Of a DNA stretch of 36,854 bases, positions 1,964 through 35,980 are shown piece by piece. The stretch is from a virus. Below the pieces are notes generated by a model. It saw nothing but the letters and a program-made list of their open reading frames with translations. It ran no database searches and had not been told where the DNA came from. Both the position numbers and the translations under genes were made by a program. The stretch covers positions 1-36,854 of the IMG/VR virus record IMGVR_UViG_3300025419_000009. The stretch is one strand, 5' to 3'. How positions within the stretch are numbered: position 1 is the stretch's first letter; each line of letters begins with the position of its first letter.

Positions 1964-1993
1964 AATATAGCGGGATAATCCCGTCAATGTCAA
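1964..1993 (-). promoter_or_regulatory. Promoter for the small membrane protein and LRR cassette
   Basis: TTGACA (1993-1988), an 18-nt spacer, then TATATT (1969-1964). It begins directly after the U-tract of the terminator at 1994-2034. The spacer is largely filled by a 13-bp palindrome (1971-1983), so a bound repressor would block polymerase. Confidence 0.65.
1969..1987. promoter_or_regulatory. Operator-like palindrome O1
   Basis: CGGGATAATCCCG at 1971-1983 is a perfect palindrome around one base. The wider form AGCGGGATAATCCCG is nearly repeated at 22159-22173 and, on the minus strand, at 35729-35743. The shared core is AGCGGNATAATNCC. All three sit in promoters. Confidence 0.6.
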
Positions 1994-4442: not shown

Positions 4443-4460
4443 AATTCCCCTCGTCTTTCC

Positions 4461-4491: not shown

Positions 4492-4492
4492 C

Positions 4493-5056: not shown

Positions 5057-5190
5057 GCCTTCGGCTCCTTGTCTTTCAGCGCGGCGACATACGCCTGGTA
5101 CCATTTGCGCCAAGATTCGGTGTTCGAGTATGGCCTCTGCGCCGATTCGCCCGCGCGTGTATGATAATAAACAACCCCATTCCCGCTCAT
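5053..5190 (-). CDS. Small hypothetical protein, 45 aa
   Basis: MSGNGVVYYHTRAGESAQ... runs from 5190, coupled by ATGA to the FitA-like RHH gene upstream and by ATGA to the RHH gene downstream. Aromatic-rich (YYH, SWRKWYQAYVAALKDKEPKA). Its last five residues KEPKA are identical to the last five of the following RHH protein because the junction DNA is duplicated (18 bp at 4895-4912 and 5053-5070). No family recognised. Confidence 0.5.
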   Translation of the reverse strand: MSGNGVVYYHTRAGESAQRPYSNTESWRKWYQAYVAALKDKEPKA

Positions 5191-5354
5191 TTCGTCCTCC
5201 GGCGCTCGGCTGCCCGCTTCTGGACAACGCGCCCATCCAAGATGAGGTCAAGCAGGTACTCGCTCAGGCTCCAGCCTTTTAAGTCAGCCTCAGCCTTGAG
5301 CGCCCTTTTCGTCTCAACGGGTACGCCTGTCACTTTGAGGTATGTGGTGCTCAT
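5187..5354 (-). CDS. FitA/CopG-like ribbon-helix-helix protein, 55 aa
   Basis: MSTTYLKVTGVPVETKRALK... has the FitA-type layout: strand TYLKVTGVP, helix ETKRALKAEADLKG, WSLSEYLLDLILDG as second helix, basic tail RAAERRRTK. FitA-like proteins are antitoxins or regulators that bind inverted repeats in their own promoter. The start at 5354 is preferred over 5372 because it lies 7 nt after a TACTAT -10 box, which predicts a leaderless message. A 9-bp inverted repeat overlaps start and -10, as expected for autoregulation. No VapC-like PIN toxin is adjacent. Confidence 0.75.
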   Translation of the reverse strand: MSTTYLKVTGVPVETKRALKAEADLKGWSLSEYLLDLILDGRVVQKRAAERRRTK

Positions 5355-5391
5355 GTGGGTAATAGTACCCACATCAGCCGCGCCTTGTCAA
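5353..5391 (-). promoter_or_regulatory. Leaderless promoter with palindrome (P3)
   Basis: TTGACA (5391-5386), 18-nt spacer, TACTAT (5367-5362), seven bases, then the ATG at 5354. The inverted repeat ATGTGGGTA / TACCCACAT (5353-5361 and 5366-5374) covers the -10 and start codon: an autoregulatory operator layout. Its sequence differs from the AGCGGNATAATNCC sites. Confidence 0.65.
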
Positions 5392-10399: not shown

Positions 10400-10414
10400 T
10401 TGCTTTTGCCTTTC

Positions 10415-10441
10415 CTGATCCCTAACCCCTGATCCCTGTTT
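10415..10441 (-). repeat. G-rich junction repeat R2
   Basis: Minus strand AACAGGGATCAGGGGTTAGG then GATCAGG. It fills the junction between the SleB-like stop and the ribosome site of the 196-residue gene. Only three full G-tracts. Confidence 0.8.
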
Positions 10442-10444
10442 TCA

Positions 10445-11943: not shown

Positions 11944-12353
11944 GCCTGCCTCACAATCCGGGGATCGACGCCTGTTTCCGCCACCGTCAGCGCCAGCCCT
12001 TGCTCGGCGAAGTATTCCACCTGCCGCCGCGTCTCGTCGTCCCTGACCCCTGATCCCTGATCCCTGATCCCTGTTTCTTCCATTTCCCGCCTGCTGATCA
12101 ACTCCCCCAGCGCGTCCGCCAGGTCTTCCGACACCTTGCGCACATTCTCATTCGCCGCTCGCTGAGAACAGTTCTTTACGATGTAGCGCATCTCCTCCAG
12201 CCGTTGCGTCGTCACCATTTCCCGCCTGCTAATCAACTCCCCCAGCGCGTCCGCCAGGTCTTCCGACACCTTGCGCACATTCTCATTCGCCGCTCGCTGA
12301 GAACAGTTCTTTACGATGTAGCGCATCTCCTCCAGCCGTTGCGTCGTCACCAT
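11940..12353 (-). CDS. Helical protein with duplicated 45-residue module, 137 aa
   Basis: Starts at 12353 (TGATG overlap with the previous gene). Two identical 45-residue modules (VTTQRLEEMRYIVKNCSQRA, then ANENVRKVSEDLADALGELI) lie head to tail, each beginning with Met; a third Met then leads into a repeat-coded linker (EETGIRDQGSGVRDDE) and an unrelated tail ending DPRIVRQA. The modules are amphipathic helices. The preceding 73-residue gene carries a diverged third copy (RKSWADVAKGLGELIELRRR). Internal ATGs could give shorter forms. Function unknown. Confidence 0.6.
   Translation of the reverse strand: MVTTQRLEEMRYIVKNCSQRAANENVRKVSEDLADALGELISRREMVTTQRLEEMRYIVKNCSQRAANENVRKVSEDLADALGELISRREMEETGIRDQGSGVRDDETRRQVEYFAEQGLALTVAETGVDPRIVRQA
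12041..12074 (-). repeat. G-rich repeat R3, inside a coding sequence
   Basis: Minus strand reads GGGATCA three times then GGGGTCAGGG: five G-tracts. It is translated in frame as GIRDQGSGVRD in the 137-residue protein. Confidence 0.9.
12084..12353 (-). repeat. 135-bp in-frame tandem duplication
   Basis: Units 12219-12353 and 12084-12218 differ at one base (12231 a, 12096 g), which is synonymous (ATT/ATC). The near identity points to a recent duplication or ongoing homogenisation. Confidence 0.95.
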
Positions 12354-12574
12354 CAGCTCACCGTGCCTTCCAGCGGAATGCTCACTGTCCGCCTGCGCAG
12401 CTCGATCAGTTCGCCCAAGCCCTTGGCCACATCCGCCCAGCTTTTCCGCATCCACTCGGTTTCTTTGTTGCGCCTCGACCGCTGCACAGCCAAATCATGC
12501 AGACCCTTCAATTGCTCCATGGTCAGCGGTTTGTGACCCCTGACCCCTGTTCCCTGTTCCCTGTTCCCTGTCAT
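12353..12574 (-). CDS. Small helical protein, diverged module paralogue, 73 aa
   Basis: Starts at 12574, ATGA-coupled to the 812-residue gene. The first 12 residues (TGNREQGTGVRG) are coded by a G-rich junction repeat, so the original start may have been the Met at LTMEQLKGL. Residues 19-64 align by eye to the 45-residue module of the next protein (EWMRKSWADVAKGLGELIEL against ENVRKVSEDLADALGELISR). Function unknown. Confidence 0.55.
   Translation of the reverse strand: MTGNREQGTGVRGHKPLTMEQLKGLHDLAVQRSRRNKETEWMRKSWADVAKGLGELIELRRRTVSIPLEGTVS
12534..12570 (-). repeat. G-rich repeat R4
   Basis: Minus strand CAGGGAACAGGGAACAGGGA then ACAGGGGTCAGGGGTCA: five G-tracts. It codes the N-terminus of the 73-residue protein, so the repeat supplies codons right after the start. 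Confidence 0.85.
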
Positions 12575-15009
12575 TTCTCATTCCCCTCGTTGCTTTCTTC
12601 CGCCTGCCGTTCCCGGCTGGTTTCTGTTTCCTGTTGCTGAATCATGGTTGCCAGCATCGGCCCATAGTGGTCCGGGTTGGCGCCCGAGTCGATAGCGAAG
12701 ATCAGATTCTGCGCCACCTTCGGATTGGTGAGCACGGCATCCATCACGCGCCTGGTTGCGGCTGCCGTCGCCCAGCCGGCCGCGCCTCCCATTTCGTAGG
12801 GCATTCCTGCCATGTGGCCCAGGTATGCTCCCGCCGCTATCGGACCGACGTGCAGGCTCATCAGGCCGTTCACCACCGGCTTGATCGCCACGCCAAACTT
12901 CGCCCGGGCTGTCCCGGTCCGGTTCAGCTCTGCCACCCTGAAGAGCGTGTCCAGGTTGTCTTTGCCCACCACGCGCTCCAGCGGCCCGCGCCCCATCCTC
13001 TGCTGCAACCGGCTCAGGTTGTTCATCAACCGGCCGCCGTCGAAGCCGCGATACTCCCAGCTCCGCGCGCTGCTGCTGGCGTTGCCTGTGAAGCTGCCAT
13101 CCACGGCCGCGGCCACCGCTTTCATTTTTTGCGCGTTCTTGAAAGCGTCGTTGAAGCCGCTCAATTCCTTGGGACTCACCGCGCCATGAATATCTTTCAT
13201 CAACTGATCCATCTGGCGGTTCGTCTCGTCCACAGCCTTCTCAGCGGCCGCCTGAGCTTCCAGCCCGCTCGCGCCCTTGTAGGCTGCCCAGGCATCCTTG
13301 TTGGCCTGCCGAATGGCGTTGAACTTGCCTCCGGTGATGTCATTGAAATGCTCGTAGCCGTCCGTCGCGAGCTTGTCGAGCTGGTTAGCAGCTTCGGTAT
13401 AGCTGCCCGTCTTCTTGAGCGTTGCGGGGATGTCAACCGGCAAAAAGTTCGGCTTGCCGGCGTTGGGCAGGTTCGCCGTCACCCGCTCGTGATATTCGCC
13501 CAACTGTTTCATGGCGTCGGCGCGGGCTTCCAGTATCTGCCGCTGCTGCGCCGGCGGCATATGCTCAAACTCCGGCCCATCCACAATCTTGTTCAGGTTG
13601 GCGACGTGCGCGCTGGCAATGTTCGCATCCTGGGTTTTCAGCACGCCGCCGCCTCTGGCTACATCCGCTTGCGCCTCTGCACCGCCCTCTGTGGCGGGCG
13701 TGTAAGCTTGCACACGTTTAAGCATCCTGTCGGGTACCGTTTGGGCTGTCGATCCCATCTCGGCGCGATTTTGCGGCCCCACTTTTCCTTCTCCCTCGAC
13801 TCTCGATGCTGCTGGATCAAACTTTGCGGCCGGGTGTGCGATCCGGCCCGTTGTTCCTTCTTCCGGCGTCACTCCGCGCAGATTGAACTCATACGGCCCG
13901 GTAGAAGCCGGTAGCCCCGGCGCGCTGGGCGGCACGGCGCGGCTCTCGTTCACTTCCTCCAGGTGCCCCGCCAGGGATCCTCGCGCCGCATTGCGAATCG
14001 ATTCCTGGCCGGCCGCCTGTTGCGGCGTGGCGCGCGCATTGCGCACCTCGGCGGATACCGGCGTCGGAACTCCGCCCACATCCTCCAGCGTCGTCGCCCG
14101 CTTGGCGATCGCGGAGCTGAGCCCCTGCCCCGCCGCATCCAACGCGCCGCCCAGCGCCGCGGTCGTCATACCCGCGCCCACCGCCGCTCCAGTGTCGCCT
14201 CCGGTCTTCACATAGGTCTGCGCGCCGCCCGCCATGCCCTGGCGCACAGCCGTGGTGCCGATCTTGATGATCTTCTGGATGGGCGCCGGCAGCTTCTCCA
14301 GGATGCTGGCCACTCCGGTAGCTTCTTTGAGCTTCTCCGCCATGGGAAGCATTTCAGCGCCCTTCCCGAGCAGTTTGAAGAGACCATCCATCCCGATGAA
14401 CTCGCCGATGTTCTCTCCCGCCTCTCCCACGCCCTGCGCCACACCCTTCGTGGGCGTCGCCGCGGCCTCCTGCAGCATCTCTTCCGGCCTGGTCAGCGGC
14501 CCTCCGCCGCGCGCCAGGCGGTCCACGCCGGCGGCTGTCCGCTCCACTCCCGCGCCCGCGCCTGTGAACAGGTTTTGGGCGACCTTTTCCGGCGCTTCTG
14601 AAACGCTGTCCAGCAGTTTCAGCGGATGATACCAGGGCAAGCCGTCCAGGTAACGGTCGATGGCGTCCTCGTCCACCGGCAGCGCCGCATGGTCGCGCGC
14701 ATAGCGTTCCAGGGTTCCCTGGTCGGCAAAGCGGTGTCCCGCTGCCCCGGCCTTCTCCACGTTGCTGAATGGGATATCCACCGGCTGGCCCTGCGGATCG
14801 AGCATCTTGTAAGTGCCTTCGCCGTTGGCGTTGTAAGCCATCCCCTTCGGCTGCTGCGCGTTCACGCCGTCCGGCGCCCCGGTAGTTGCCGGGTTGTTAC
14901 CGGGTGCACTCACCGGGGTGGCTTTGCTCATATCGAACAAGGGTTGCGCCGCCTGCGCTGCGCCGATGGGCACAGCTTTTGACATATCGAAGAGAGGCGC
15001 CGTGTTCAT
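12571..15009 (-). CDS. Large internal virion (ejection-type) protein, 812 aa
   Basis: Starts at 15009, ATGA-coupled to the 677-residue gene. Begins with two PLFDMSKA repeats, then a QPKGMAYNANGEGTYKML... region. Residues about 150-310 are rich in A, G and L with amphipathic segments (GMDGLFKLLGKGAEMLP, GAAVGAGMTTAALGGALDAA); the rest is long helical and coiled-coil. The C-terminus is polar and Q/E-rich (IQQQETETSRERQAEESNEG). Length, order (third after 203- and 677-residue proteins) and composition fit podovirus internal core proteins that are ejected with the DNA. No transglycosylase motif seen. Confidence 0.65.
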   Translation of the reverse strand: MNTAPLFDMSKAVPIGAAQAAQPLFDMSKATPVSAPGNNPATTGAPDGVNAQQPKGMAYNANGEGTYKMLDPQGQPVDIPFSNVEKAGAAGHRFADQGTLERYARDHAALPVDEDAIDRYLDGLPWYHPLKLLDSVSEAPEKVAQNLFTGAGAGVERTAAGVDRLARGGGPLTRPEEMLQEAAATPTKGVAQGVGEAGENIGEFIGMDGLFKLLGKGAEMLPMAEKLKEATGVASILEKLPAPIQKIIKIGTTAVRQGMAGGAQTYVKTGGDTGAAVGAGMTTAALGGALDAAGQGLSSAIAKRATTLEDVGGVPTPVSAEVRNARATPQQAAGQESIRNAARGSLAGHLEEVNESRAVPPSAPGLPASTGPYEFNLRGVTPEEGTTGRIAHPAAKFDPAASRVEGEGKVGPQNRAEMGSTAQTVPDRMLKRVQAYTPATEGGAEAQADVARGGGVLKTQDANIASAHVANLNKIVDGPEFEHMPPAQQRQILEARADAMKQLGEYHERVTANLPNAGKPNFLPVDIPATLKKTGSYTEAANQLDKLATDGYEHFNDITGGKFNAIRQANKDAWAAYKGASGLEAQAAAEKAVDETNRQMDQLMKDIHGAVSPKELSGFNDAFKNAQKMKAVAAAVDGSFTGNASSSARSWEYRGFDGGRLMNNLSRLQQRMGRGPLERVVGKDNLDTLFRVAELNRTGTARAKFGVAIKPVVNGLMSLHVGPIAAGAYLGHMAGMPYEMGGAAGWATAAATRRVMDAVLTNPKVAQNLIFAIDSGANPDHYGPMLATMIQQQETETSRERQAEESNEGNEK

Positions 15010-18166: not shown

Positions 18167-18426
18167 GGTTTTTCTGACCCCTGGCCCTTGACCTCTGTTT
18201 CCTGCTTTTCAATTTGCTGCACTTCGTACTCCAACTGCCCGCCACACAGCGCGCATTTCCCAATCGGGCTGCCCGGCCCGGGCTTGTGAATGTACAGCGG
18301 CGATGTCCCGCACATCAGCTCGCCCAGCCGGTCAACCTCCTCCAAGCTGATGAGGCTGCCAAACCTCAGAATCTTGGCATGGTCCGCGTTCTTCACGCAT
18401 TGAATCTTCAACCGGATTTCAGCCAT
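18163..18426 (-). CDS. Small zinc-ribbon protein, 87 aa
   Basis: MAEIRLKIQCVKNADHAKIL... overlaps the previous gene by 8 nt. C-x2-C (CALCGGQLEYEV) near residue 58 with earlier cysteines (C10, C39) could bind zinc. The C-terminus (ETEVKGQGSEKP) is coded by junction repeat R5. No enzyme motif. One of at least eight small cysteine-pair proteins in this genome. Confidence 0.55.
   Translation of the reverse strand: MAEIRLKIQCVKNADHAKILRFGSLISLEEVDRLGELMCGTSPLYIHKPGPGSPIGKCALCGGQLEYEVQQIEKQETEVKGQGSEKP
18174..18199 (-). repeat. G-rich repeat R5, degenerate
   Basis: Minus strand AACAGAGGTCAAGGGCCAGG then GGTCAG. Only two full G-tracts. It codes the last residues of the 87-residue protein and precedes the GNAT-like start. 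Confidence 0.6.
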
Positions 18427-18768: not shown

Positions 18769-18805
18769 CTAACCCCTAACCCCTAAGCCCTAACCCCTGA
18801 TCCCT
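18769..18805 (-). repeat. G-rich junction repeat R7
   Basis: Minus strand GGGATCAGGGGTTAGGGCTT then AGGGGTTAGGGGTTAG: five G-tracts, telomere-like TTAGGGG spacing. It fills the gap between the 974-residue stop and the 111-residue start. Confidence 0.85.
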
Positions 18806-21728
18806 ATCTCGCCGCTTGCTCCTTGCGCTCGTCCTCGGTCGTCGCGTAGATGCCCCAGTCCATTAGCTCATCCGCGGCGGCCTGCGTCCCGTAATCGAAC
18901 TTGGTCAGAATGCAGTCGCTCACCAGGCTGCGCCCGTTGATCTTCGTCTTGTAGCGGTCGCTGTAGACGCTCACGCTCTCGGGCACCGGCTTGGGAGGAT
19001 CCTGATCAATCTGCAGCAGCGGATCCCACGGCCGCGCCGCCGAGGCCGCAATCTCGCCCAGCAGAATGCTCACCGCCGGCCGCGCGCCCACCGCCGCGCT
19101 CTTGGCGCTGATGTGCACCACTTCGGTGGTCTGCCCGGTCGGGCACAGCAGGTTCACGCCCTTGACATCCCACGCCGGGTAAGCTGTGCCGCCGGTGAAC
19201 ACTCCCGGATGATCCCGGTCGGAGGCGTTGTCATTCCATAATGTCCCGCTTGCGTCGCGCGCCAAAATCGGTCCACCACCCACCGGAGGCCCAATCAGCA
19301 GTTGGAAAATCCCTGGGCTGGTCTCCACCGATTGCACGGCGCTTGTACCTCCCACAACTGCCGCCCTCGGGCTCCATAGCAAGCCGCTCTCCGGAGGCGC
19401 CACGCTCGACATGCGGAACCAGCCTACGGCTCCATCCGCCACGTACATCCCGGTATCTCTCGTGTTGGCGATGCACCAGCTCAGAAAGGCTGTCGCCGGG
19501 TTGTAAAGCGCACTGTTGAGGCCGCCGGTAGTGACTTTCAGGAACTGATCTCCGATCGGGAATCCGACCTCCGTGTAGCCGCTCTGCGGATTGAACGGAT
19601 ACTGGATCGTGATGCTGCTCACCTTTGCGTTAGCCTCCATCAGGTAGATCACGGTCCCCAAGATGTCCAGGGCGTTGTAGTTTGCCAGGTTCACCTTGTC
19701 GCAATACTTGGTCGCGTAGAAGGGATTGCTGGCCGTTCCCAGTCCCAGCACAATCTCGATTCCGCTCGTGGTGAAAACAAGCAGGGCTCCATTTTCCACC
19801 GTGATGGGCACGGCGCGGATAAAATTGCCCTTCAGCGGAATTTCGTTCAGGGGCGGAAAAGCCGTCGCGCCATTGCCGGTTATGGTGTCCGGGCCGCCGC
19901 TGTAGTAGAGCGTGGATCCCAAACCCATCCAAACTCTTTGCAGATAGAAAACCGGAGCCGTCATTCCCGGTTGTGGCGGATCGTTGCTCTCGGCCACTGG
20001 CGCGGGAATAAGAGCGTTCAGCGCGCCGCCGCCCGTAGTGCTGGTGTCGGGGATCCCCAGTTCGCCATAATCCAGGCTTGTTCCCAGGGTATCGGTCGGG
20101 GTTTGGTCTTCGAGGATCAGCGTGGCTTGTCCCTGAGCCGTCCTCCAAATCCAAATCTGATCTATCTGCGTATCGGAGTCAAAGCCGTCCAGAATTTCAA
20201 GGTACGGTTGCAGGCCGCTGGTGTTGGCTGGCCCGAGAATCCCGCCGGGGATAGTCACCGGCAAAGATGCCGTGGACACCGATCCATCGATCGAATGAGT
20301 CGAAAAAGCATAGCTGACCGCGGCGGTCGTCAGCTTTACCCCCGGCCCTACGCAGGTCCAGGTCAGCGCGCCGTCGCTGGTGGTGGCTCCCACCGTCGTG
20401 GCCCAGGTGGGCTCTGATCCTCCGGAGTTCCCTCCGCCTCCGTTGGTTACAATCTGCAGGTTCTGGTTCGAGTCCACAATGACGAGAATTTGTCCCGAGA
20501 CGCTTGCATTCCCGAAGGCGGTTGAAGCGGTCCAAACTCCGGATGGTCCAAAGTTCCACCAGACGGCCGTGCCGTCCACAGTCAGCGAATATGGACCTTG
20601 CCCCACTGTCCAGTTGGGGTAATTCAAGCCGGTTTTGTAGTTCGTTCCGCCAGGAACGAAGTTCATCATCACCTGAATGTTTTGGTTTGGGTCGAGTATC
20701 GAATAAAACTGGCCCTGCACGGTGTTCGCCTGCCAAAAACGCGCTCCATCTGACACCAGAAGCGGGGATCCATGGAAAGAAGATGCTCCCAGACCCCAAT
20801 TCTGCAATGCCGTCCCATAGCATTTCCACTGCTGCCCGGCGTCGGCTGTCACCGCGAACTGCGTTCCACTGAAAATGGGCGCTGTCGCCCCCGTCGTTCC
20901 GTTGCCCGTCGATCCTGTGCCTGTATCCGCGGTCTGGGCATAGGCTGTGTGCGCCAGCGCGATGGTGAAGATGCCCAGCGTCGTCGAAACGATCGAAGCC
21001 ACCGGATAAGTGTGCGTGTTCAAGTAAGTTGCTCCGGTAAGCCCGCTGAAGCTCACCGCCGCGCCCACCAGGTTGGGAAACTGCTCCGGAACCGCCTGCG
21101 GATTCACCCAGATCGTCACCGTCGTCCCATTCGACGCCGTAGCCACAATTTGAAGCGAGATTCCGCCCAGCGCCATCTGTATGGTTCCCGGCGCCGCGCC
21201 TTCGTTGATCAGATTGCCGGAGTTGAATGTCTTGCTCGGTCCCCATCCTCCCGGATAAATCCACTTCTTCAGCGCATTCGACCGCGTGAAAAAGAGAGTT
21301 GTTCCGACTCCTAAAAAGCGGGTCGGTCCGCCTCCCGATCCGCTGTAGACGGTGCTCTTTCCCCCGCCCGTTGCGTCATAAATGCTGCCATCGCTCCCGT
21401 CGGCGAGTATGCGGATGATCTCCTGGCCGTACTGGATGCACTTGAAGGCATAGAAACTCAGAATCGACGGAAAGGTTGTAGAGTTCCATTCCGGATTGCC
21501 CGGCCGGCGGATATCGGTCAATTTGGCGCTGATCTCCCGGTTCAGCCCATCCCACATGGAGTCGAACCGGCTTCCCTGGTAGAACTTTTTGATCAGATAG
21601 GCGGTGGCCGCGTCGCGGTACGGGCTGCGCTGGGTCCACAATCCTGTGAACTGTTCGCCGCCCATGTTGAGCGCTCCGTACCGGGTTGGGTCCGTCTGCG
21701 CTCCAGTCGCCTGTATCGGGTTAGCCAT
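18804..21728 (-). CDS. Large beta-rich tail structural protein, 974 aa
   Basis: Starts at 21728 after AGGAGCGCAGCGACCA. N-terminus: GGEQFTGLWTQRSPYRDAATAYLIKKFY, helical, then long G/S/T-rich beta stretches with repeats of the type FWQANTVQGQFYSILDPNQNIQV and ASVSGQILVIVDSNQNLQIV; the C-terminal 250 residues are mixed and end with a charged helix (ATTEDERKEQAAR). No signal peptide. Its size and place between adaptor-like proteins and internal virion genes suggest a tail-tube, hub or stabilisation protein of a short tail. Specific role unknown. Confidence 0.65.
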   Translation of the reverse strand: MANPIQATGAQTDPTRYGALNMGGEQFTGLWTQRSPYRDAATAYLIKKFYQGSRFDSMWDGLNREISAKLTDIRRPGNPEWNSTTFPSILSFYAFKCIQYGQEIIRILADGSDGSIYDATGGGKSTVYSGSGGGPTRFLGVGTTLFFTRSNALKKWIYPGGWGPSKTFNSGNLINEGAAPGTIQMALGGISLQIVATASNGTTVTIWVNPQAVPEQFPNLVGAAVSFSGLTGATYLNTHTYPVASIVSTTLGIFTIALAHTAYAQTADTGTGSTGNGTTGATAPIFSGTQFAVTADAGQQWKCYGTALQNWGLGASSFHGSPLLVSDGARFWQANTVQGQFYSILDPNQNIQVMMNFVPGGTNYKTGLNYPNWTVGQGPYSLTVDGTAVWWNFGPSGVWTASTAFGNASVSGQILVIVDSNQNLQIVTNGGGGNSGGSEPTWATTVGATTSDGALTWTCVGPGVKLTTAAVSYAFSTHSIDGSVSTASLPVTIPGGILGPANTSGLQPYLEILDGFDSDTQIDQIWIWRTAQGQATLILEDQTPTDTLGTSLDYGELGIPDTSTTGGGALNALIPAPVAESNDPPQPGMTAPVFYLQRVWMGLGSTLYYSGGPDTITGNGATAFPPLNEIPLKGNFIRAVPITVENGALLVFTTSGIEIVLGLGTASNPFYATKYCDKVNLANYNALDILGTVIYLMEANAKVSSITIQYPFNPQSGYTEVGFPIGDQFLKVTTGGLNSALYNPATAFLSWCIANTRDTGMYVADGAVGWFRMSSVAPPESGLLWSPRAAVVGGTSAVQSVETSPGIFQLLIGPPVGGGPILARDASGTLWNDNASDRDHPGVFTGGTAYPAWDVKGVNLLCPTGQTTEVVHISAKSAAVGARPAVSILLGEIAASAARPWDPLLQIDQDPPKPVPESVSVYSDRYKTKINGRSLVSDCILTKFDYGTQAAADELMDWGIYATTEDERKEQAAR

Positions 21729-21747: not shown

Positions 21748-21780
21748 AACAGGGGTTAGGGATTAGGGGTTAGGGGTCAG
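21748..21780 (+). repeat. G-rich repeat R8, opposite orientation
   Basis: Plus strand GGGGTTAGGGATTAGGGGTT then AGGGG: four G-tracts. Its C-rich strand gives the last codons (ELTPNP) and the stop of the 131-residue gene. Confidence 0.85.
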
Positions 21781-22158
21781 TTCCGGCTCGCCGCCGCTGT
21801 TGCTTGGATTCAGCAGCGCCGTCAGCCGCGCCTGCAACACGATCTGCAAGATGTTGGCCTTGTCCGAGCCTCCGAGTCCAATCACCGCATCGCGCAGTTC
21901 CATGTCGCTCACCGCGGCGATCGCCTCGTCCACCTGCTCCACGGGAATCTCCAAGCTGATCGGGAAAACCAGTTGGGGCGCATCCTCCGCTTCGGTCTCG
22001 TCCGCCGGCTCCGGCGCCTCTACATTCTCCGCTTCGGCGCTTGCGGGTTTCAGTTTTTGGGCTTTGTACCAACTGATCTTCAAAGCCTTGGCTACGGCGC
22101 TGACACTTTTGCCTTCCTCAAACAGTTGGGCAGCTTCGGTTTCGAGTGCATTCTCCAT
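21763..22158 (-). CDS. Helix-turn-helix-like acidic protein, 131 aa
   Basis: MENALETEAAQLFEEGKSVS... starts at 22158, six bases after the TATTAT of promoter P2, so its message should be leaderless. The first 40 residues (AAQLFEEGKSVSAVAKALKI, then SWYKAQKLK) look like a homeodomain-type helix-turn-helix. An acidic linker (EAENVEAPEPADETEAEDA) follows, then a helical C-terminal part (EQVDEAIAAVSDMELRDAVIG). It may be an internal regulator of late genes or a small terminase-like protein; neither is established. It breaks an otherwise structural gene row. Confidence 0.6.
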   Translation of the reverse strand: MENALETEAAQLFEEGKSVSAVAKALKISWYKAQKLKPASAEAENVEAPEPADETEAEDAPQLVFPISLEIPVEQVDEAIAAVSDMELRDAVIGLGGSDKANILQIVLQARLTALLNPSNSGGEPELTPNP

Positions 22159-22160
22159 AG

Positions 22161-22194
22161 CGGGATAATACCGTCACTCTCTCCACTATGTCAA
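22161..22194 (-). promoter_or_regulatory. Leaderless promoter P2 with operator O2
   Basis: TTGACA (22194-22189), 18-nt spacer, TATTAT (22170-22165), CCCGCT, then ATG at 22158. CGGGATAATACCG (22161-22173) overlaps the -10 and matches O1 at 12 of 13 bases. The string TATTATCCCGCTATGGAG matches the plus-strand promoter at 35732 at 17 of 18 bases, although the genes differ. Confidence 0.7.
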
Positions 22195-23909: not shown

Positions 23910-23960
23910 GGCGTCGAGTAGGGTTTGCAGAGTTTGGGAGCTGTTTGCCGTCGCACACCG

Positions 23961-23994
23961 CCTGATCTCTGATCTCTGAACACTGATCCCTGTT
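23961..23994 (-). repeat. G-rich repeat R9, degenerate
   Basis: Minus strand AACAGGGATCAGTGTTCAGA then GATCAGAGATCAG. It keeps the GATCAG period but has lost most G-tracts. It sits in the 186-bp gap between the 312- and 323-residue genes, where I see no gene. Confidence 0.7.
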
Positions 23995-24095
23995 CTTGCG
24001 GCTCAGGGCCAGTTTGCCGGGGGAATAGTCGGCGCCCTGGCCCTGCCGCTCTGCCGCGCTTACCAGGAGGCATGGCGCGCCGGCATCCCGTTGGC

Positions 24096-25995: not shown

Positions 25996-26030
25996 CCCCT
26001 GATCCCTGATCTCTGACCCCTGATCTCTGT
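25996..26030 (-). repeat. G-rich junction repeat R10
   Basis: Minus strand CAGAGATCAGGGGTCAGAGA then TCAGGGATCAGGGGG. Its 3' G-run abuts the start of the signal-peptide fibre gene, so the repeat doubles as ribosome-site-like sequence. Confidence 0.8.
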
Positions 26031-26031
26031 T

Positions 26032-26640
26032 TTACGCCGCGTACCTGTCACAAGGCCGGCGCCGCAGTACCGGCGCTCCGGTCTCCGTGTTTGTCGTGGT
26101 GATGGTTACGCCGCATTGCATCTCCTGGGCGGCCTCTTCGCTCAGCTTGTCTTTGGCCAGGTCATACAGCCGGTTGAACTCAGCCAGATCCGCATGATAC
26201 TTCGCCACGCGGGCATCGCGCTGGGCCGCTGTCTCGCCCTCGCGAATCGCGGTCGCCTGGTCGGCGGGATGCGGGCTCCAGCACTCGCCGCGGCAGATAA
26301 TGCACTTGATCAGCTTGGTAAAGCCGTCCGGCATGTTGAAGACGCTCAGCGCGCTGTCGCCCTTGCCCTTGTAGGGATTCTTCGGCGATCCTCCCTGGCG
26401 GTGGTTGCATTCGGCCATCAAAGCCTTGCGGTTCGCCCTGTCGGTCGCCAATTGCGCCTGCCGCTGCCGGTTCTTCCGGCTGCGGTCCGCCTTCTCGTTC
26501 TTCAGGCGCTGGTTACGTTCCTTGGCCTCTTCCAGGTCAAGCTGCTTGGTCTCCAGATCAATCCGCTTGATCTCCAGATCGAGCTTCGCCAGATCGCTCT
26601 CCGCCTTTGCTTCCGCCGTGCTTTTGGCTGTCTCTGCCAT
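26032..26640 (-). CDS. Coiled-coil protein with cysteine knuckle, 202 aa
   Basis: Starts at 26640 after GGGAGAGCATC. Residues 1-75 form a highly charged coiled coil (LEIKRIDLETKQLDLEEAKE). A KCIICRGEC knuckle lies near residue 115, followed by helical DARVAKYHADLAEFNRLYDL. Cysteines near the end (MQCGVTI, RRPCDRY) could complete a metal site. Position directly after the capsid and zinc-ribbon genes suggests a head or assembly protein. No family recognised. Confidence 0.55.
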   Translation of the reverse strand: MAETAKSTAEAKAESDLAKLDLEIKRIDLETKQLDLEEAKERNQRLKNEKADRSRKNRQRQAQLATDRANRKALMAECNHRQGGSPKNPYKGKGDSALSVFNMPDGFTKLIKCIICRGECWSPHPADQATAIREGETAAQRDARVAKYHADLAEFNRLYDLAKDKLSEEAAQEMQCGVTITTTNTETGAPVLRRRPCDRYAA

Positions 26641-26909: not shown

Positions 26910-26912
26910 ATT

Positions 26913-26944
26913 CCTAACCCCTGATCCCTAACCCCTAATCCCTG
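26913..26944 (-). repeat. G-rich junction repeat R11
   Basis: Minus strand CAGGGATTAGGGGTTAGGGA then TCAGGGGTTAGG: four G-tracts. It sits between the capsid stop and the hairpin at 26886-26909. Confidence 0.85.
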
Positions 26945-26947
26945 CGG

Positions 26948-28120
26948 TTAGGTTGTCTGCGGCACCGCGTTGGCGATGCGCATACGGCTGGTCGCGTCTG
27001 GAGGCAAGCCCACGCCGAAGACGCAATTGTAGCCCGTGCCGGCCATGATCAGGCCGTTCGGGTCGTAGGCGGTCCGTTCCTTGTACTCGCCCGCCCATAG
27101 GTTCATGTTCTCCCAGCGCGGATCGATCTTGGTGTGCCGCTTGTTCGGGAAGTTCACAAACACGATCGCATCCGCTCCGGCAAGGTAAGTGCTGATCGCC
27201 GTCAGCCCGCTGCCTTCCCAGTTGGTGGTCTGCGTCTGGTTGGTGCTCTTCCTCCAGTGGCAGCCCATCAACTCCAGCGTCTTGACGGGCGTTTCCCCGT
27301 CCTGCCCGTCCAGCGGCTCCAGCTTCAACTGCCCGGCGTCGGTGTGCTTCCAGATATCGACAACCGAGTTGTTCGAGTTGTCGAGCATCATGTCGCCCAC
27401 AAAGAAGTCGTGGATGCTGCCGTTGTAATAGCCGTTCGCCATCGGTCGCACGGTCGCGCCGCCCAGGCTGGCCGGCATCTGCTCGATCATGTTCTTCGAG
27501 AAGGCGTACGGCGAGTTGGTCGAGTCCTGGTTCGATGTCCTGCCGTCCCAGGTGCGCAGGTAATCCATCATGTACATCACCAGGTCGTCGATGCTGATGC
27601 CGAGCTGGTAGGCCATCACGCGCCGGTTCTCTTCCAGATCGTTCGAGATCGAGGTCAGGAACGCCAGATCGGAGATGTTGTTGTAGTTGGCCAGTTGCGC
27701 CACCACAATGTCCTTGAAGTTCACGCTGATCTGCTCGGGCGTCCCGATGGTGCCTTCCGTCTGTTGCTGCGTATCCGCGCCTAGCGGAATCGCCATGAAG
27801 TTGCGGAAGGTCTGGCCGCTCTTCTCCGGCAGGTCCATATGGGTCACCATCAGCAGCTTGTTCAGGTTCATATAAAGCCACTTCATGAAGACCCGGTTGT
27901 AGTGGATCGTAAGCCGCGCCTGCGGCATGTTGGCGCTGGTCTGCGCCGCCGGGCTGGGACCGTCGCAAACTGTTGCCGCTCCAGCCGCCATCGCCGCGGC
28001 ATTCATGGCGCTGTGCAGGGTTACCGCGATAGCGCCGCCGATCGCGGCGATGACTTGGATGATGGTCCAAAGCACACAAGCCACGCCACGCGAGATTTTG
28101 CACTGCATCGTCTCGGTCAT
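26948..28120 (-). CDS. Major capsid protein, N4gp56-like, 390 aa
   Basis: Start at 28120 after GGGAGCGGAGT. From about residue 65 the sequence follows the N4gp56 capsid pattern: MPQARLTIHYNRVFMKWLYM, then PEKSGQTFRNFMAIPLGADT, TEGTIGTPEQISVNFKDIVV and LTSISNDLEENRRVMAYQLG. C-terminal GLPPDATSRMRIANAV completes the HK97-like domain. Coat proteins of this family form the icosahedral shell. Odd: residues 8-50 (GVACVLWTIIQVIAAIGGAI...) are strongly hydrophobic, unlike a usual capsid start. An internal ATG at 28006 would omit most of it but has no visible ribosome site. The scaffold-like gene lies just upstream. Confidence 0.8.
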   Translation of the reverse strand: MTETMQCKISRGVACVLWTIIQVIAAIGGAIAVTLHSAMNAAAMAAGAATVCDGPSPAAQTSANMPQARLTIHYNRVFMKWLYMNLNKLLMVTHMDLPEKSGQTFRNFMAIPLGADTQQQTEGTIGTPEQISVNFKDIVVAQLANYNNISDLAFLTSISNDLEENRRVMAYQLGISIDDLVMYMMDYLRTWDGRTSNQDSTNSPYAFSKNMIEQMPASLGGATVRPMANGYYNGSIHDFFVGDMMLDNSNNSVVDIWKHTDAGQLKLEPLDGQDGETPVKTLELMGCHWRKSTNQTQTTNWEGSGLTAISTYLAGADAIVFVNFPNKRHTKIDPRWENMNLWAGEYKERTAYDPNGLIMAGTGYNCVFGVGLPPDATSRMRIANAVPQTT

Positions 28121-28971: not shown

Positions 28972-29420
28972 TCCCCGGTTCCCTTCTCTTTCCGCTGCTC
29001 CAACTCCAGTTCGGCCAGCTCCGCGTCCACCATCAACTCCAGTTCGCCCTTCGCCCGGCGGTACATCTTGGCGTACCCAAACGCCTCGGCGATCGCGTCC
29101 CGATCCTTTAGCGGGTCTCCCTGAGCCAGGATTATAGCCGCCTTCTCATGGATTCTGCACGTTTTTTCCAGCAGCCTCGCCAAAATCGGCCATCCCGGCA
29201 GTATCCGCATCTCCCGCAGGTCCATCCGCTCGGCGGTGGTCAGCTCCCTGTCCGGGTCTTCCACGGGCGCCCGGCGCAGCGTTTCCTGAGCCGCCCCCGC
29301 CTCTTCCATCCGGCCATCTTTCAGCGCCGCCAACTCCGGGTTCAACGGGACGCCGGCCAGGTACTTCTCCAGCGGCGTTAGTTCTGACCCCTGATCTCTG
29401 ACCCCTGATCCCTGGTTCAT
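28968..29420 (-). CDS. Hypothetical protein, 150 aa, repeat-coded N-terminus
   Basis: Starts at 29420, ATGA-coupled to portal. Residues 2-13 (NQGSGVRDQGSE) are coded by repeat R12. The rest is helical and charged: LTTAERMDLREMRILPGWPI, KTCRIHEKAAIILAQG, and an E-rich tail (ELELMVDAELAELELEQRKE). Coupled on both sides to structural genes, so probably an assembly protein. If the repeat is a late insertion, an ancestral start may have been lost. Confidence 0.6.
   Translation of the reverse strand: MNQGSGVRDQGSELTPLEKYLAGVPLNPELAALKDGRMEEAGAAQETLRRAPVEDPDRELTTAERMDLREMRILPGWPILARLLEKTCRIHEKAAIILAQGDPLKDRDAIAEAFGYAKMYRRAKGELELMVDAELAELELEQRKEKGTGE
29384..29415 (-). repeat. G-rich repeat R12, coding
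   Basis: Minus strand CAGGGATCAGGGGTCAGAGA then TCAGGGGTCAG. It begins two codons after the ATG of the 150-residue gene and is read as QGSGVRDQGS. Confidence 0.85.
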
Positions 29421-31615
29421 TCCCCCACTCCCGGCACGCCATTTTGCAGCTCGCCCATGTCTGTGTTGCGCTCCAGCCGCGCCTCGGCCAGTTCCAGGGG
29501 CACGTCGCCGCTCACGTGGTCCATAGCCTTGTCCACCAGCGTATGCTGGATGTCCTGTTTGCCCTGCTCCTGAATCTGCTGGAGCTTGTTCTGACCCTTC
29601 GCCTGCTCCACGGCCTGCGCCATCTTGGCCTTGATCGCCTCGGGATTCATCTGCGCCATGTTCTGTTTCTGCTCGTCCGTCATGGGCACAAAGATGTCCT
29701 GCCAGTTTTGCAGTTCGCTCATCCGCTGGAAGGCGTTCTCGATAGCCTGGAAGTTGATCGTCTGCCCGATCTCGTGCTGCCACTGCATCAACTGCGGCTG
29801 CTGCACAATCTGCAGGAAGAACGGTATCAACTGCATAATCGCGGCCTTGGCCGCCAGCTTCTGCCCGCACAGCACCTTGATCTCGAACTCCGCGTCGATG
29901 AACGCCTCGGCGGTAATCTCCTCCAGGATGCTCGCTCCCAGCCGCGAGCTGAGAATCTCGCGGATCTCCTGAATAGGCATGTCCTCCAGAATCCGCTCCC
30001 GCTGGAAAGCTCTCCACCGCTTGATGGTGTACTCCAGGTGCGCCACGGGGTCGGCGATGTTGTCGTCGGCCTTCGATCCCGCCCGGTTCACCCCCGCCGC
30101 CGTGCGCATGGCGCTCGATCCCGGCGTGTTCACGTTGCCCTGCATTGAGATGGAGTCGGCGCCCACCGTGTTCTCGCCGCCGTCCTTGCCTAGTTGGTAA
30201 ATCTTCCAGGCCTCGGGCGGAATCTGCGGCATTTGCATGAACTGGAACGCCTTGCGCACGTCTCCGTCGCGCGTCCGCACTCCCCACAGCGTTCCCAGGC
30301 CCATCACCACGTTCTGGGTAGGCGCGTTGCCGTCCTGGCTATCGTAGAGAATCGGCGCGTTCAGCGGGAAGGCGATCATCTTCAGTACTTCGTTCAGCAC
30401 GCCCTGGTCCATGCGCTGGTCCCCGGCGTTCAGCCTGCCCGTGCCCATCCCATAACCGCTGTTGTCGATGTTCCACCAGGTCGCGCTGTACCCCAGCGCC
30501 TGGTCGCCCATGGTGTGTTCCTGGTTCCGGATCACCTTCCGTCGGCTCTCGTAGCAGAGAACCTCGATCACCACCTTGTCCGTCCAATAAGCCAGCTTCA
30601 TCAGCGGCTTCTCAAACGGGTTGGCGCTCTCGTTGCGCTGCTCCCCGGCCGCGTGCAGCACGGTGCTGCTCTCCTGGTTCATCGACTGCGCCACCTGGCT
30701 CCCCACCGCCGCGTCGCCTAGCGGATTTTCCAAGAAGTACGTCTTCAGGTCTTCGTCGCTGGGGATGTCCTTGTAGCAGTCCAGTTCGCGCAGGCTCTTC
30801 AAATCCTCGAAGGCCACATAGTCGATGTCGATTCGCGCCCCGCCGGTCAAGTCGGGCCGGTTCGGTGTCCGCCACTTCGGGCTGTAGAGCGTGGTGCCCA
30901 GCCGCCGGTACTCGAAGTAGGGCCAGCTCTCCTCGACCGTCTCCTCGCGCACCTTGAAGGTATCGCTCTCCCAGGTATCCACCTCTTTCTTGCCGCCCAG
31001 CGGCATGTCGATCGAGACCGGAGGCGTCTCGCGCACGCGACTCTTCTTCTTGACCTTCTTCGTCTCCCAGATCGGAATCCAGATCGCCGTGCCTTGCAGC
31101 ACTTGGCACTCGATTCCCAGGCTCATGTTGTACTCGAAGTCCGCCCGGTCGTCGAGTTCCTCGAAGATCGCGCTCCATGCCTCCAGAATCCGCTCCGAGT
31201 TGGGATCGCCGGCCAGCTTGCCGCGCGGTTCGAGGGCGGTGGGGCTGGTGTCGGCAAAGATGCCCCGCCGCACCTGGTTGCTCATGGTGTTGCGGTTCTT
31301 GGCCACGTTGAAGCGGCTGATGCGCGCCGGCCGGCTGGTCTGCATCCGCCAGTCGCGGTCGTAGTTCGGGCTCTGGTAAAGGAAATCGACGTACTGCCAC
31401 TCCGCCAGCCAACTGTTCGTGTCCAGCCATGCCATAGCCCGCTGGTAGTCTTCCCACACAATGGTGGCCGCCGCGTCGTCGTCGAAGAGGATACCCTCGG
31501 CGGAACTCGCGGGCAGCGTCACCTGCTTGTCCTGGATCAACGGCGTCAGCTCGTTGCCCAGCGGCATCCCATCTCCGCCCACCTTCGCCGCTATTTCCTC
31601 GCGATCAGCCAACAC
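29417..31615 (-). CDS. Portal protein, 732 aa
   Basis: GTG start at 31615, overlapping the zinc-ribbon gene by 11 nt. Order TerL-portal-scaffold-capsid and size (about 730 aa, as in podovirus portals) support the call. N-terminal wing: WEDYQRAMAWLDTNSWLAEW; then ARISRFNVAKNRNTMSNQVR and a body with many W/Y/D motifs; C-terminal third is a Q/E-rich coiled coil (AQAVEQAKGQNKLQQIQEQG) that fits a barrel or crown. The portal is the 12-subunit channel for DNA packaging and ejection and a platform for the terminase. Confidence 0.8.
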   Translation of the reverse strand: MLADREEIAAKVGGDGMPLGNELTPLIQDKQVTLPASSAEGILFDDDAAATIVWEDYQRAMAWLDTNSWLAEWQYVDFLYQSPNYDRDWRMQTSRPARISRFNVAKNRNTMSNQVRRGIFADTSPTALEPRGKLAGDPNSERILEAWSAIFEELDDRADFEYNMSLGIECQVLQGTAIWIPIWETKKVKKKSRVRETPPVSIDMPLGGKKEVDTWESDTFKVREETVEESWPYFEYRRLGTTLYSPKWRTPNRPDLTGGARIDIDYVAFEDLKSLRELDCYKDIPSDEDLKTYFLENPLGDAAVGSQVAQSMNQESSTVLHAAGEQRNESANPFEKPLMKLAYWTDKVVIEVLCYESRRKVIRNQEHTMGDQALGYSATWWNIDNSGYGMGTGRLNAGDQRMDQGVLNEVLKMIAFPLNAPILYDSQDGNAPTQNVVMGLGTLWGVRTRDGDVRKAFQFMQMPQIPPEAWKIYQLGKDGGENTVGADSISMQGNVNTPGSSAMRTAAGVNRAGSKADDNIADPVAHLEYTIKRWRAFQRERILEDMPIQEIREILSSRLGASILEEITAEAFIDAEFEIKVLCGQKLAAKAAIMQLIPFFLQIVQQPQLMQWQHEIGQTINFQAIENAFQRMSELQNWQDIFVPMTDEQKQNMAQMNPEAIKAKMAQAVEQAKGQNKLQQIQEQGKQDIQHTLVDKAMDHVSGDVPLELAEARLERNTDMGELQNGVPGVGE

Positions 31616-31808
31616 TCACCCCCGGTATGACGGACTCAGGCGCGTTTACAACTTCTTCCATGATGATCTTAACGATTTTCCATTGTCTAAGGCAGTTTTC
31701 ACACTCAGGGTTCTGGCATTGGTAAAAATCGTTTTCTGTGAGAGGCATCAAATGGTTGCATTTTCCACAAAAAACAGAATGTAAAACGATTTTGTTTCCC
31801 TCAGCCAT
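31605..31808 (-). CDS. A+T-rich small zinc-ribbon protein, 67 aa
   Basis: MAEGNKIVLHSVFCGKCNHL... overlaps the TerL end by 8 nt and the portal start by 11 nt. Two cysteine pairs (CGKC and CQNPECENC) should bind zinc, a Com-like or ribbon pattern. Its DNA is visibly poorer in G+C than the flanking TerL and portal genes (TGTAAAACGATTTTG, ATTTTCCATTG), so codon use differs and it may be a recent gain wedged between two core genes. Function unknown. Confidence 0.7.
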   Translation of the reverse strand: MAEGNKIVLHSVFCGKCNHLMPLTENDFYQCQNPECENCLRQWKIVKIIMEEVVNAPESVIPGVSVG

Positions 31809-33537
31809 CCAGCCCTCCCGGCAGCGGCGGCATACTCCATGTCGCTGTCTTTTGCATGGCGGCCAGGTGCGCCGTCATCTTCTGCTGCGCCTGCTCGTCC
31901 ACTGCCGGCATCCCCTGCTGGCTAAGGAAGCTCTGCACCAGCGCGTCTTCCCTGCGCCGCCGCTGCCAGGCTATCTCCTCTTCCTGCATGTTGGCCCGCA
32001 TCTGGCTGATGGGAACCAAAGCAGCGAAGCGCGAGATGCACTCCACGATTCCATTCTCCTCCACTAGCCCAAAATGCACAAACTGCTTCTGGCACTCAGC
32101 CGCTTTGCTCATTCCGGTCGAGAACAGCACCCGGCCTACCTTCATCAGCGGCTCAAGCTGCTTGATCGCTCCGGTCCTCCGGTTGTCGTCCTCCTCGAAC
32201 TCCAGCCATTGAATCCGCACGCTGCGGTTCCGCTTTGCCGCCTCGTTGCGGATGTGCGCCGCCAGATACTCGCAGCCGGGCACGTCGATAATCATCACCC
32301 CGTCCGCGTCGTTCTCCTTGGCCGCCGCCACAATTCTCTCAGCTTCGCTGGAAGGCGTGTAGGCGCTCTGCCAGCACTCCTTGACGTACACCTTCCCATC
32401 CACCACCGTAGCCGCGGCGCCCTCGCTGAACTTGGCCATCCCCGGCTTTCCGCCGTACCTCGGCCTCCAGCAGATGAATGTCTCTGCATCGTTGCGCCTC
32501 GGCAGCCGCTCCTCTTCGATCGCGCAGCTCGCGTACAGCTTCTCCGGGAAGGTCGGCACATTGCCGCCCTGAGGGTCGTTCTGCTGCTGGCTCATGAAAC
32601 TTTCGTAGTTGTCGAGATATTTTTCGCGGAGAATTTTATAACGCAACTGCGGAAACTCCGGCCAATAAAAGATCAGGTCATCTTCTGCGGGGAACTCGCC
32701 GGGCAGGAACGGGCAGCCGTCCTTGCGCGCGATGGAACTCCGGATCAGCACGCCCCATGCCTCTGGGTTTTCTTTGGCTCTCTCGATGCATTTGGAGTAG
32801 AAGTCGAAAGGATGGTATCGCGTCCCGCCGATCCGGATGTAGCCCATACCCTCCGGGCCGGACCGCAGCAAGTTCTCATTCTGGGCGCACACGTTGATTA
32901 CCCGGTTGCGCACTTCCGGGCTGGCATCGATTCCGCTGTTTTTTGTGTCTTCCACATCGTCGGGGTCGATGTGCGAAGGATGCCAGCCAGACTGGGTAGA
33001 TTCGGGAGAGCTGATGGCTAGCGTTGTATCTAGGTCGCCAGCGCCCACCAGTCGGCGGTTGGGCAGGTTCCAGGCCCAGCGTTGCGAATCGACCGAGGAA
33101 TACGCCGGGTCTTTTTCCGTCACCGACTCGAAAAACAGCTTTTGGAAGACGGTCGGCGATGCGCCTTTAGGCTTGTAGAAGTACTTCGCCGTATGCTTGC
33201 CGATCGCCGTGGCCAGCGGTTGCGTGGCGCTCTCGCAAAGGAACGTCACTTCCTCCGGGAAGGCGCAAAGCCACTGTACGCGGTCCACGCGCTTCAAGCT
33301 GGTTTTGAAGGTGTGCCGGGGGTCCAGGTGCAGCAGGTTCTTCTTGCAGGGTTGGGCGAACATGGGCAGGGTGGGAACCTTGGGACCGTAGAGATCGACG
33401 GCGGCCTGATGAACGCGGGGAACAAAGTCCGGGTAGCCCAGCATCTCGGCGGCGAAAAACATATCCTTTAAAAAGCGATGCCGCAAGTCCTCGCGGTATG
33501 CGGCATCGCTTTCGATCTTGTCGGTGTCGAGAATCAC
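31801..33537 (-). CDS. Terminase large subunit, 578 aa
   Basis: GTG start at 33537 with GGAG eight bases before it. ATPase part: a Walker-A-like LDPRHTFKTSLKR with K79 and T80 (the loop differs from GxxxxGKT, as in several TerL groups), WLCAFPEEVTFLCES, and HIDPDDVEDTKNS with D191/D193/D194 as Walker-B-like acids. Nuclease part: VVDGKVYVKECWQ and DGVMIIDVPGCEYLAAHI, with acids that can hold metal. TerL powers packaging and cuts the concatemer. It starts the head module; no small subunit is identified. Confidence 0.75.
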   Translation of the reverse strand: MILDTDKIESDAAYREDLRHRFLKDMFFAAEMLGYPDFVPRVHQAAVDLYGPKVPTLPMFAQPCKKNLLHLDPRHTFKTSLKRVDRVQWLCAFPEEVTFLCESATQPLATAIGKHTAKYFYKPKGASPTVFQKLFFESVTEKDPAYSSVDSQRWAWNLPNRRLVGAGDLDTTLAISSPESTQSGWHPSHIDPDDVEDTKNSGIDASPEVRNRVINVCAQNENLLRSGPEGMGYIRIGGTRYHPFDFYSKCIERAKENPEAWGVLIRSSIARKDGCPFLPGEFPAEDDLIFYWPEFPQLRYKILREKYLDNYESFMSQQQNDPQGGNVPTFPEKLYASCAIEEERLPRRNDAETFICWRPRYGGKPGMAKFSEGAAATVVDGKVYVKECWQSAYTPSSEAERIVAAAKENDADGVMIIDVPGCEYLAAHIRNEAAKRNRSVRIQWLEFEEDDNRRTGAIKQLEPLMKVGRVLFSTGMSKAAECQKQFVHFGLVEENGIVECISRFAALVPISQMRANMQEEEIAWQRRRREDALVQSFLSQQGMPAVDEQAQQKMTAHLAAMQKTATWSMPPLPGGLDG

Positions 33538-35135: not shown

Positions 35136-35557
35136 TCAATCGCCTCAATCGTCATGATGGTTTTGGGGCCGATCTCACGGCATGGGAGTGAATCGTAAAT
35201 CTCCACAATCAGCCTCTTCACCCAGGCATCCGAGAGTTCTTTCCCTTTGGCGTCGCGGAACATGCCGCGCTTCGCGGCACAGTCCAGGATGAGCTTGTTG
35301 TAGTTGTCGGCGTCGCCGCGTTGGGCCTTCCCTGGGAAGTAGCACAGGGTTACTTGAAAGATTCCGCTGGCGCTCACTGCGTAGAGGTCGCGGGCAAAGA
35401 TCGGAAAGTCGCGCATGAACGCCTTGGCCGCCGCGCTCTTGGGGTGAACGCCGGCGGCCGGATGCTCGGTGAGATGGTTCACGCTGGGGGGCAGCATCGG
35501 CATCTCGAAGCGAATGATGGACGGACCGTTCAAGCCGCTATCCCCCATCTGCGCCAT
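35111..35557 (-). CDS. rusA: RusA-like Holliday junction resolvase, 148 aa
   Basis: Start chosen at the ATG at 35557 (GGAG seven bases upstream); a longer frame to 35641 overlaps the upstream gene fully. RusA pattern: FEMPMLPPSVNHL at the N-terminus, beta strand FQVTLCYFPG, then RGDADNYNKLILDCAAKRGM with catalytic-type D82, D84 and D92, and LSDAWVKRLIVEIYD with D110. RusA enzymes are dimers that cut four-way DNA junctions during replication and packaging. Fits the early region next to the initiator candidate. Confidence 0.8.
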   Translation of the reverse strand: MAQMGDSGLNGPSIIRFEMPMLPPSVNHLTEHPAAGVHPKSAAAKAFMRDFPIFARDLYAVSASGIFQVTLCYFPGKAQRGDADNYNKLILDCAAKRGMFRDAKGKELSDAWVKRLIVEIYDSLPCREIGPKTIMTIEAIECLTMQQF

Positions 35558-35715
35558 CTGCGCTCCATTTTGGCATTTTCTTTTTGCTGTTTGCATTCCA
35601 GACAAAGATTCTCTTTGGTTGTGATATGCGATAAGCCGCACTCGAAGCAGAGTCGCGCGAGACGTCGGAATTCCGCCTCGGTGATCTGGCCGGTATTTAG
35701 AGTTTTTGTTTCCAT
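35530..35715 (-). CDS. Small double-CxxC zinc protein, 61 aa
   Basis: METKTLNTGQITEAEFRRLA... starts at 35715 with AGAGG upstream and a TATAAT -10 box. CFECG and CLECK pairs form a four-cysteine zinc knuckle; the tail is basic (KMERRWRRWG). Overlaps the RusA start, so co-translated. Its first codons mirror those of the divergent RHH gene (both METK). A regulator or nucleic-acid binder is plausible. Confidence 0.6.
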   Translation of the reverse strand: METKTLNTGQITEAEFRRLARLCFECGLSHITTKENLCLECKQQKENAKMERRWRRWGIAA

Positions 35716-35743
35716 GTTGCGCCTCTAGTGGTATTATACCGCT
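35709..35743. promoter_or_regulatory. Divergent promoter region P4 with operator O3
   Basis: Palindrome GGTATTATACC (35730-35740) contains a plus-strand TATTAT (35732-35737), six bases before the RHH ATG at 35744 (leaderless), and a minus-strand TATAAT (35738-35733) for the 61-residue gene. Plus -35: TTTCCA at 35709-35714, 17 nt spacing; minus -35: TTACTT, 16 nt. The minus reading AGCGGTATAATACC matches the O1/O2 core. Confidence 0.65.
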
Positions 35744-35980
35744 ATGGAGACAAAAAGTAAGAGCAGATTACGAAAAAAATCGACGGCCGCGGCCGATGTC
35801 TACGCTGCCTCAAAATGGTCGCCGGTTCACAAGCGCATCGAAATCCGGTTTCCATCAGCCGAAGAGCATCGCCTGATTTTTCAAGCTGCCGAACGCTCCG
35901 GCTTGTCGATGAATGGCTGGCTGGTGCGTGTTAGTAAGGCGGCCGCTGAGCGCGAGCTGGGAATGGAATCAGGAACCTAG
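35744..35980 (+). CDS. Ribbon-helix-helix regulator, 78 aa, the only plus-strand gene
   Basis: METKSKSRLRKKSTAAADVY... begins directly after the operator O3. Basic N-terminal arm (about 1-25); then strand HKRIEIRFP, helix SAEEHRLIFQAAERSG, and LSMNGWLVRVSKAAAEREL as the second helix: the Arc/CopG-type RHH layout. RHH dimers bind palindromes, so this protein is the natural candidate to bind O3 and the similar O1 and O2. Its stop shares CTAG with the stop of the convergent winged-helix gene. Leaderless transcription would link its synthesis tightly to its own promoter. Confidence 0.75.
   Translation: METKSKSRLRKKSTAAADVYAASKWSPVHKRIEIRFPSAEEHRLIFQAAERSGLSMNGWLVRVSKAAAERELGMESGT

Follow-up and report, generated by a model that had tools for sequence, protein, structure and literature searches.

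Background

Divergent transcription in bacteria can arise from symmetric promoters that act on both strands of the DNA. The commonest and optimal spacing between the divergent transcription start sites (TSSs) of these promoters is 18 bp, and 7 bp is the optimal distance from the −10 element to the TSS. In addition, positions −7 and −11 are reciprocal, and the T at −18 lies opposite the initiating A of the other strand (PMC12825309, PMC10268837). Leaderless genes (those described as TA-led) are widespread in bacteria and a TATAAT-like signal precedes their starts by approximately 12 nt (Zheng et al. 2011, PMC3160421). Leaderless mRNAs for repressors encoded on mobile or viral elements, lambda cI and Tn1721 tetR, are among those cited in the text of PMC9938897. 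The word 'leaderless' does not occur in the text of PMC12825309 or PMC10268837, and full-text searches, with most subscription journals outside their scope, gave no paper whose title and abstract describe leaderless expression combined with a bidirectional or divergent promoter in this way. Here, we describe loci in the genome of an uncultured phage that appear to bring these components together.

The phage genome

The window analysed is a whole IMG/VR virus record of 36,854 bases. Most of its long genes are on the minus strand, as is the gene for the large subunit of terminase (31801-33537). Relatives of this terminase are present in about 65 other IMG/VR contigs, many of them near 40 kb, and two scans with terminase alignments did not find it in 84,980 bacterial and archaeal genomes. 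In named phages, matches to the terminase are only ∼23% identical across 70% of its length. Phage records contain nothing close to the late half of the window, and a search of Rfam gave zero hits.

Repeats of several types are found in the window. A 66-nt unit is repeated in tandem more than 20 times across two adjacent ORFs at 1-1723, with leucine-rich repeats identified by Pfam in the one ORF that was scanned. Arrays of heptamer-like repeats (CCCTGAT/CCCTGAC/CCCTAAC) are dispersed in about a dozen copies, many of which seem to be located where genes of the minus-strand operon adjoin (4457-4518, 10406-10467, 12041-12088, 12538-12585, 18172-18219, 18774-18821, 23960-24007, 25997-26044, 26912-26959, and 29382-29429). 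At the end of the contig, 36699-36760 and 36793-36854 form a perfect inverted repeat of 62 nt around a 32-nt loop, representing either a hairpin end or a fold-back introduced by assembly. Among the minus-strand ORFs, the translation of 4158-4442 resembles acyl carrier protein (GMDSLDRVEI motif, by eye only), which is unusual in a phage, and 3781-4245 has a Tlde1/YkuD L,D-transpeptidase-type domain (Pfam E 9e-14), its product possibly being linked to lysis or the cell wall.

Promoters close to start codons

A first-pass annotation of this DNA had proposed that a −10 box lies only 6-7 nt before the ATG at 22158, 5354, and 35744, and all three sites are as described. The arrangement is TTGACA-18-TATTAT-6-ATG at 22158 and TTGACA-18-TACTAT-7-ATG at 5354 (both minus strand), and TATTAT-6-ATG with a weak −35 element, TTTCCA, at 35744 (plus strand). 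No SD site was found close upstream of these three starts, whereas many other genes in the window, with ORF starts assigned mechanically, have one. The window has five near-consensus promoters compared with 0.45 in shuffled sequences, and three with an ATG 5-8 nt past the −10 element compared with 0.05 per shuffled window (largest count, one). These three are the sites at 22158, 5354, and 36737, the last of which was discounted as probably spurious because it is within the 62-nt fold-back at the contig end. From this geometry we infer that 22158, 5354, and 35744 are sigma-70-type promoters for leaderless mRNAs, with predicted TSSs at, or no more than one base from, the A of the ATG. It had been suggested that this represents an unusual mode of translation; it does stand apart from the many genes with SD-like sites, but leaderless translation is a known mode. 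The three genes are unrelated in sequence, but all of them encode small predicted DNA-binding proteins, with a weak match for that at 22158.

The predicted leaderless gene at 21763..22158 (minus strand) encodes a protein of 131 aa in which the N-terminus gives a weak match to HTH domains (HTH_23-like), and only close relatives of it were found. Its TSS would be the A of the ATG at 22158, with the −10 TATTAT at 22165..22170 and the −35 TTGACA at 22189..22194. In a homologue with 69% protein identity (L005) the promoter sequence GACGGTATTATCCCGCTATGGA and the −10 element are identical and TTGACA is retained; the upstream spacer differs by substitutions and one deletion. The candidate operator at this site, CGGGATAATACCG / CGGTATTATCCCG (22161..22173), is imperfect, with five of six pairs matching, and its sequence is also present at 1971-1983 and 35729-35741.

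On the plus strand, the predicted leaderless gene at 35744..35980 encodes a 78-aa protein, and its −10 element, TATTAT, is at 35732..35737, 6 nt ahead of the ATG. Overlapping this is a minus-strand −10 element, TATAAT (35733..35738; upstream sequence of the partner, catagcggtataataccactagaggcgcaac), for a divergent gene that is small, Cys-rich, and the first on the terminase side (35530..35715). This gene with its start at 35715 is an addition to the first-pass annotation. Its TSS was placed 18 bp from the plus-strand TSS by analogy with the published spacing, and the predicted 11-nt leader, AGAGGCGCAAC (35716..35726, minus strand), contains an SD-like GAGG. The two −10 elements are covered by the palindrome AGTGGTATTATACCGCT (35727..35743), a candidate operator and symmetric bidirectional −10 in which eight of nine pairs match about an axis at −9. 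It is conserved in two relatives (L020 and L006) apart from the last base. In the same two relatives, whose proteins are 55% identical, TCTAGTGGTATTATACCGC-ATG is kept and the surrounding DNA has diverged.

Several comparisons suggest the type of protein encoded at 35744. A profile of 12 relatives matches Arc (1.4e-5), Pfam matches to TacA1/NikA are sub-threshold, and a structural model predicts two helices with high confidence, in a helix-helix arrangement, for which Arc is the top Foldseek match, albeit with weak E-values (best 0.22). By profile and fold match, the product is an Arc-like ribbon-helix-helix (RHH) protein.

The predicted leaderless gene at 5187..5354 (minus strand) also encodes an RHH protein (55 aa, NikA/FitA-like). 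It has a −35 TTGACA at 5386..5391, a −10 TACTAT at 5362..5367 (7 nt ahead of the ATG), and a perfect palindrome with 9-bp arms, ATGTGGGTA-ATAG-TACCCACAT (5353..5374), that spans the −10 element and start codon. Support is weaker at this site because no homologue was found in viral contigs or in the fetched loci. The site seems to be a separate occurrence of the design, in which an autoregulated leaderless RHH gene has an operator of its own. Just downstream, 4898-5056 (minus strand) encodes a second small protein of RHH/HicB-like type. A palindrome overlapping the −10 element had been proposed for each site; at 5354 it is strong, at 35744 good, and at 22158 only imperfect.

The sequence TATTATnCCGCTATGGAG is found exactly twice in the window, at 22153-22170 (minus strand) and 35732-35749 (plus strand); two matches with up to three mismatches occurred in 0 of 100 shuffles. 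Agreement at 17 of 18 bases between two of the promoters (P2 and P4) had been attributed to a mobile or selected regulatory cassette, and corresponds to a common operator plus −10. A promoter cassette that is mobile, or was duplicated recently, and has spread within the phage genome would be in keeping with the 95% likeness of the 21-nt arms at 22152-22172 and 35730-35750. However, identity between the copies ends at the element and their flanks are unrelated, in relatives both copies have kept their position beside orthologous genes, and the arms co-vary by locus across the family. Since the promoters are unchanged beside orthologues of only 69% and 55% identity, they are more readily explained by selection than by mobility, and we rejected the mobile cassette as very improbable. 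The alternative part of the original suggestion, a selected regulatory site, is upheld by promoters being kept in place while their surroundings diverged.

Conservation and divergent spacing in the phage family

A set of 39 non-redundant RHH relatives was surveyed from regions near terminase, and nearly all are on the strand opposite to it. A TATAAT-like hexamer with no more than one mismatch is present 6-8 nt ahead of the ATG in 28 of the 39 (at exactly 6 nt in 23) and is missing from this interval in the other 11; when two mismatches are allowed, 35 of the 39 have such a hexamer. The background for these hexamers is ∼0.1% per position, and similar treatment of terminase starts gave 1 in 43. 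Some loci offered a choice of up to three in-frame ATGs; the one with the best fit was then scored, which could lift the ∼1% background only a few-fold. An SD-like sequence between −16 and −4 was found in none of the 39.

At 14 of the 39 loci the divergent gene has its ATG either 18 bp (10 loci) or 19 bp (4 loci) from that of the RHH gene, most other distances being represented by approximately one to three loci each, with a second peak at 29 bp (six loci, including that in the window). Most of the 18-19 bp loci have a partner −10-like box 6 or 7 nt ahead of the partner ATG, and overlapping −10 elements on both strands, with symmetry about −9, are found at 35744 and in most relatives examined. 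Since 18-19 bp between ATGs is the known TSS spacing, both genes in this class should be leaderless and use a common −10/operator; TSSs placed at the A of both ATGs would put the start codons at the observed distance. Each of the two divergent genes would start at its own TSS and, at exactly 18 bp, the A of each start codon would double as the −18T of the other promoter. If the TSS spacing is also 18 bp in the 29-bp class, the partner there would have an 11-nt leader. A de novo search of IMG/VR for divergent pairs of extended −10 elements gave 67 stretches, among which the clear divergent regulator pair was one already known (L045/L062).

These data bear on whether the genes might instead be leadered, with transcripts starting upstream and the −10-like boxes being fortuitous or minor. 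The gene at 5354 does have an in-frame GTG at 5372 with AAGG upstream of it. Against this, upstream SD-like sequence is lacking throughout the 39 relatives, the 6-nt spacing is fixed among diverged homologues and, in the 18-19 bp class, any leader would need to start within the divergent coding sequence. Leadered transcripts are improbable, and conservation in place, close −10 elements, and the lack of SD-like sequence all favour the predicted leaderless starts.

The palindrome as a probable operator

At every one of the nine sites tested first, the dyad axis at −9 scored better than its two neighbours. In a set of 22 non-redundant sites, the arm pairs −15/−3 and −16/−2 are each complementary in 17, compared with 9.3 and 8.3, respectively, under a null in which the right arms are redistributed between loci. 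Overall, co-variation of the arms was equalled in 0 of 20,000 shuffles. The −16/−2 pair occurs as G.C, C.G, and A.T (0 of 5000 shuffles), and in a smaller, nine-sequence set the co-variation is 0.403 compared with 0.166 (0 of 500 shuffles), slid versions giving at most 0.167. These shuffle counts do not amount to exact probabilities, since shared ancestry remains in the shuffles.

Symmetry of this type might arise merely from two overlapping (extended) −10 elements, in which case the bidirectional promoters would be constitutive and lack a protein operator. Symmetric −10 elements are common in bacteria (PMC10268837), and TGnTATNATAnCA, which many of the sites fit, is two overlapping extended −10 elements. 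Nevertheless, position −16 is outside the extended −10, so the co-varying −16/−2 pair falls beyond it, and the conserved product is a predicted DNA-binding RHH protein. The operator string also recurs in a place where it does not serve as a −10: GGKATTATMCCGCTAT has a third exact copy, additional to those noted at first pass, at 1967..1982 (minus strand). The core of this copy, CGGGATTATCCCG (1971-1983), forms a perfect palindrome of 13 bp and falls between the −35 and −10 elements of the promoter TTGACA-18-TATATT (1964..1993, minus strand), and the gene behind this promoter is small, leadered, and SD-bearing, with its ATG at 1936. This different placement relative to the promoter indicates that the element is separable from the −10, as expected for a binding site. 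An origin in promoter symmetry alone is unlikely, and the comparative data support an operator over the −10: the shared element is a predicted binding site rather than a by-product of the promoter.

Taken together, the geometry, conservation, arm co-variation, and absence of SD-like sequence make it probable that these are leaderless sigma-70-type promoters, with an Arc-like RHH protein that would repress its own gene through the palindrome at −9 and act on a small regulon, and with 5354 being independent. RHH autorepression is the likeliest mechanism. The protein would bind the palindrome centred on −9, blocking RNA polymerase at the −10 element, and would repress not only the RHH gene but also the overlapping promoter for divergent transcription toward the terminase side. 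The sites at 22158 and 1967-1982, assigned by shared sequence only, would be further targets. We favour, somewhat less firmly, a more general form of this proposal for the uncultured phage family, in which a conserved palindrome of 17-18 bp would be at once the shared −10, the operator, and the spacer between two +1/−18T start codons, giving two leaderless mRNAs from a single RHH-controlled switch.

Significance and comparison with known systems

If this is correct, it would illustrate the extent to which regulatory DNA can be compacted, with one palindrome providing an operator, two promoters, and two translation starts. The RHH regulator gene and its divergent neighbour would constitute an unusually compact, conserved genetic switch. 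These loci would also provide a natural test of how symmetric bidirectional promoters are regulated, which the abstract of PMC12825309 describes as an open issue, and of what leaderless expression serves, which is largely still to be established (PMC9938897).

The phage loci resemble the symmetric bidirectional promoters studied by Warman, Grainger, Wade and colleagues in having overlapping −10 elements on opposite strands, symmetry about −9, reciprocal positions −7 and −11, and a predicted TSS spacing of 18 bp. They differ in that both start codons lie at predicted TSSs, with 18-19 bp from one ATG to the other, that the arms reach past the −10, and that a linked RHH gene is conserved. As in TA-led genes, a −10-like box is found ∼12 nt ahead of the start codon without an SD sequence; unlike them, the cases described here are regulator genes in phages in which SD-like sites precede many of the other genes. 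CvkR/cas12k of type V-K CRISPR-associated transposons is similar in that both mRNAs are leaderless (predicted here) with an inverted-repeat operator at the promoter, but the regulator is MerR-type, and the corrected start codons and TSSs are 82 nt apart, so there is no common −10 (PMC9938897). The protein encoded at 35744 has sequence and fold similarity to Arc, of the Arc/Mnt and CopG-type RHH repressors, and unlike these its gene has a predicted leaderless start and a single dyad, the putative operator, over a shared −10. Lambda cI and Tn1721 tetR have other protein folds and separate −10 elements. The components are already known from these systems; it is their combination that appears to be new.
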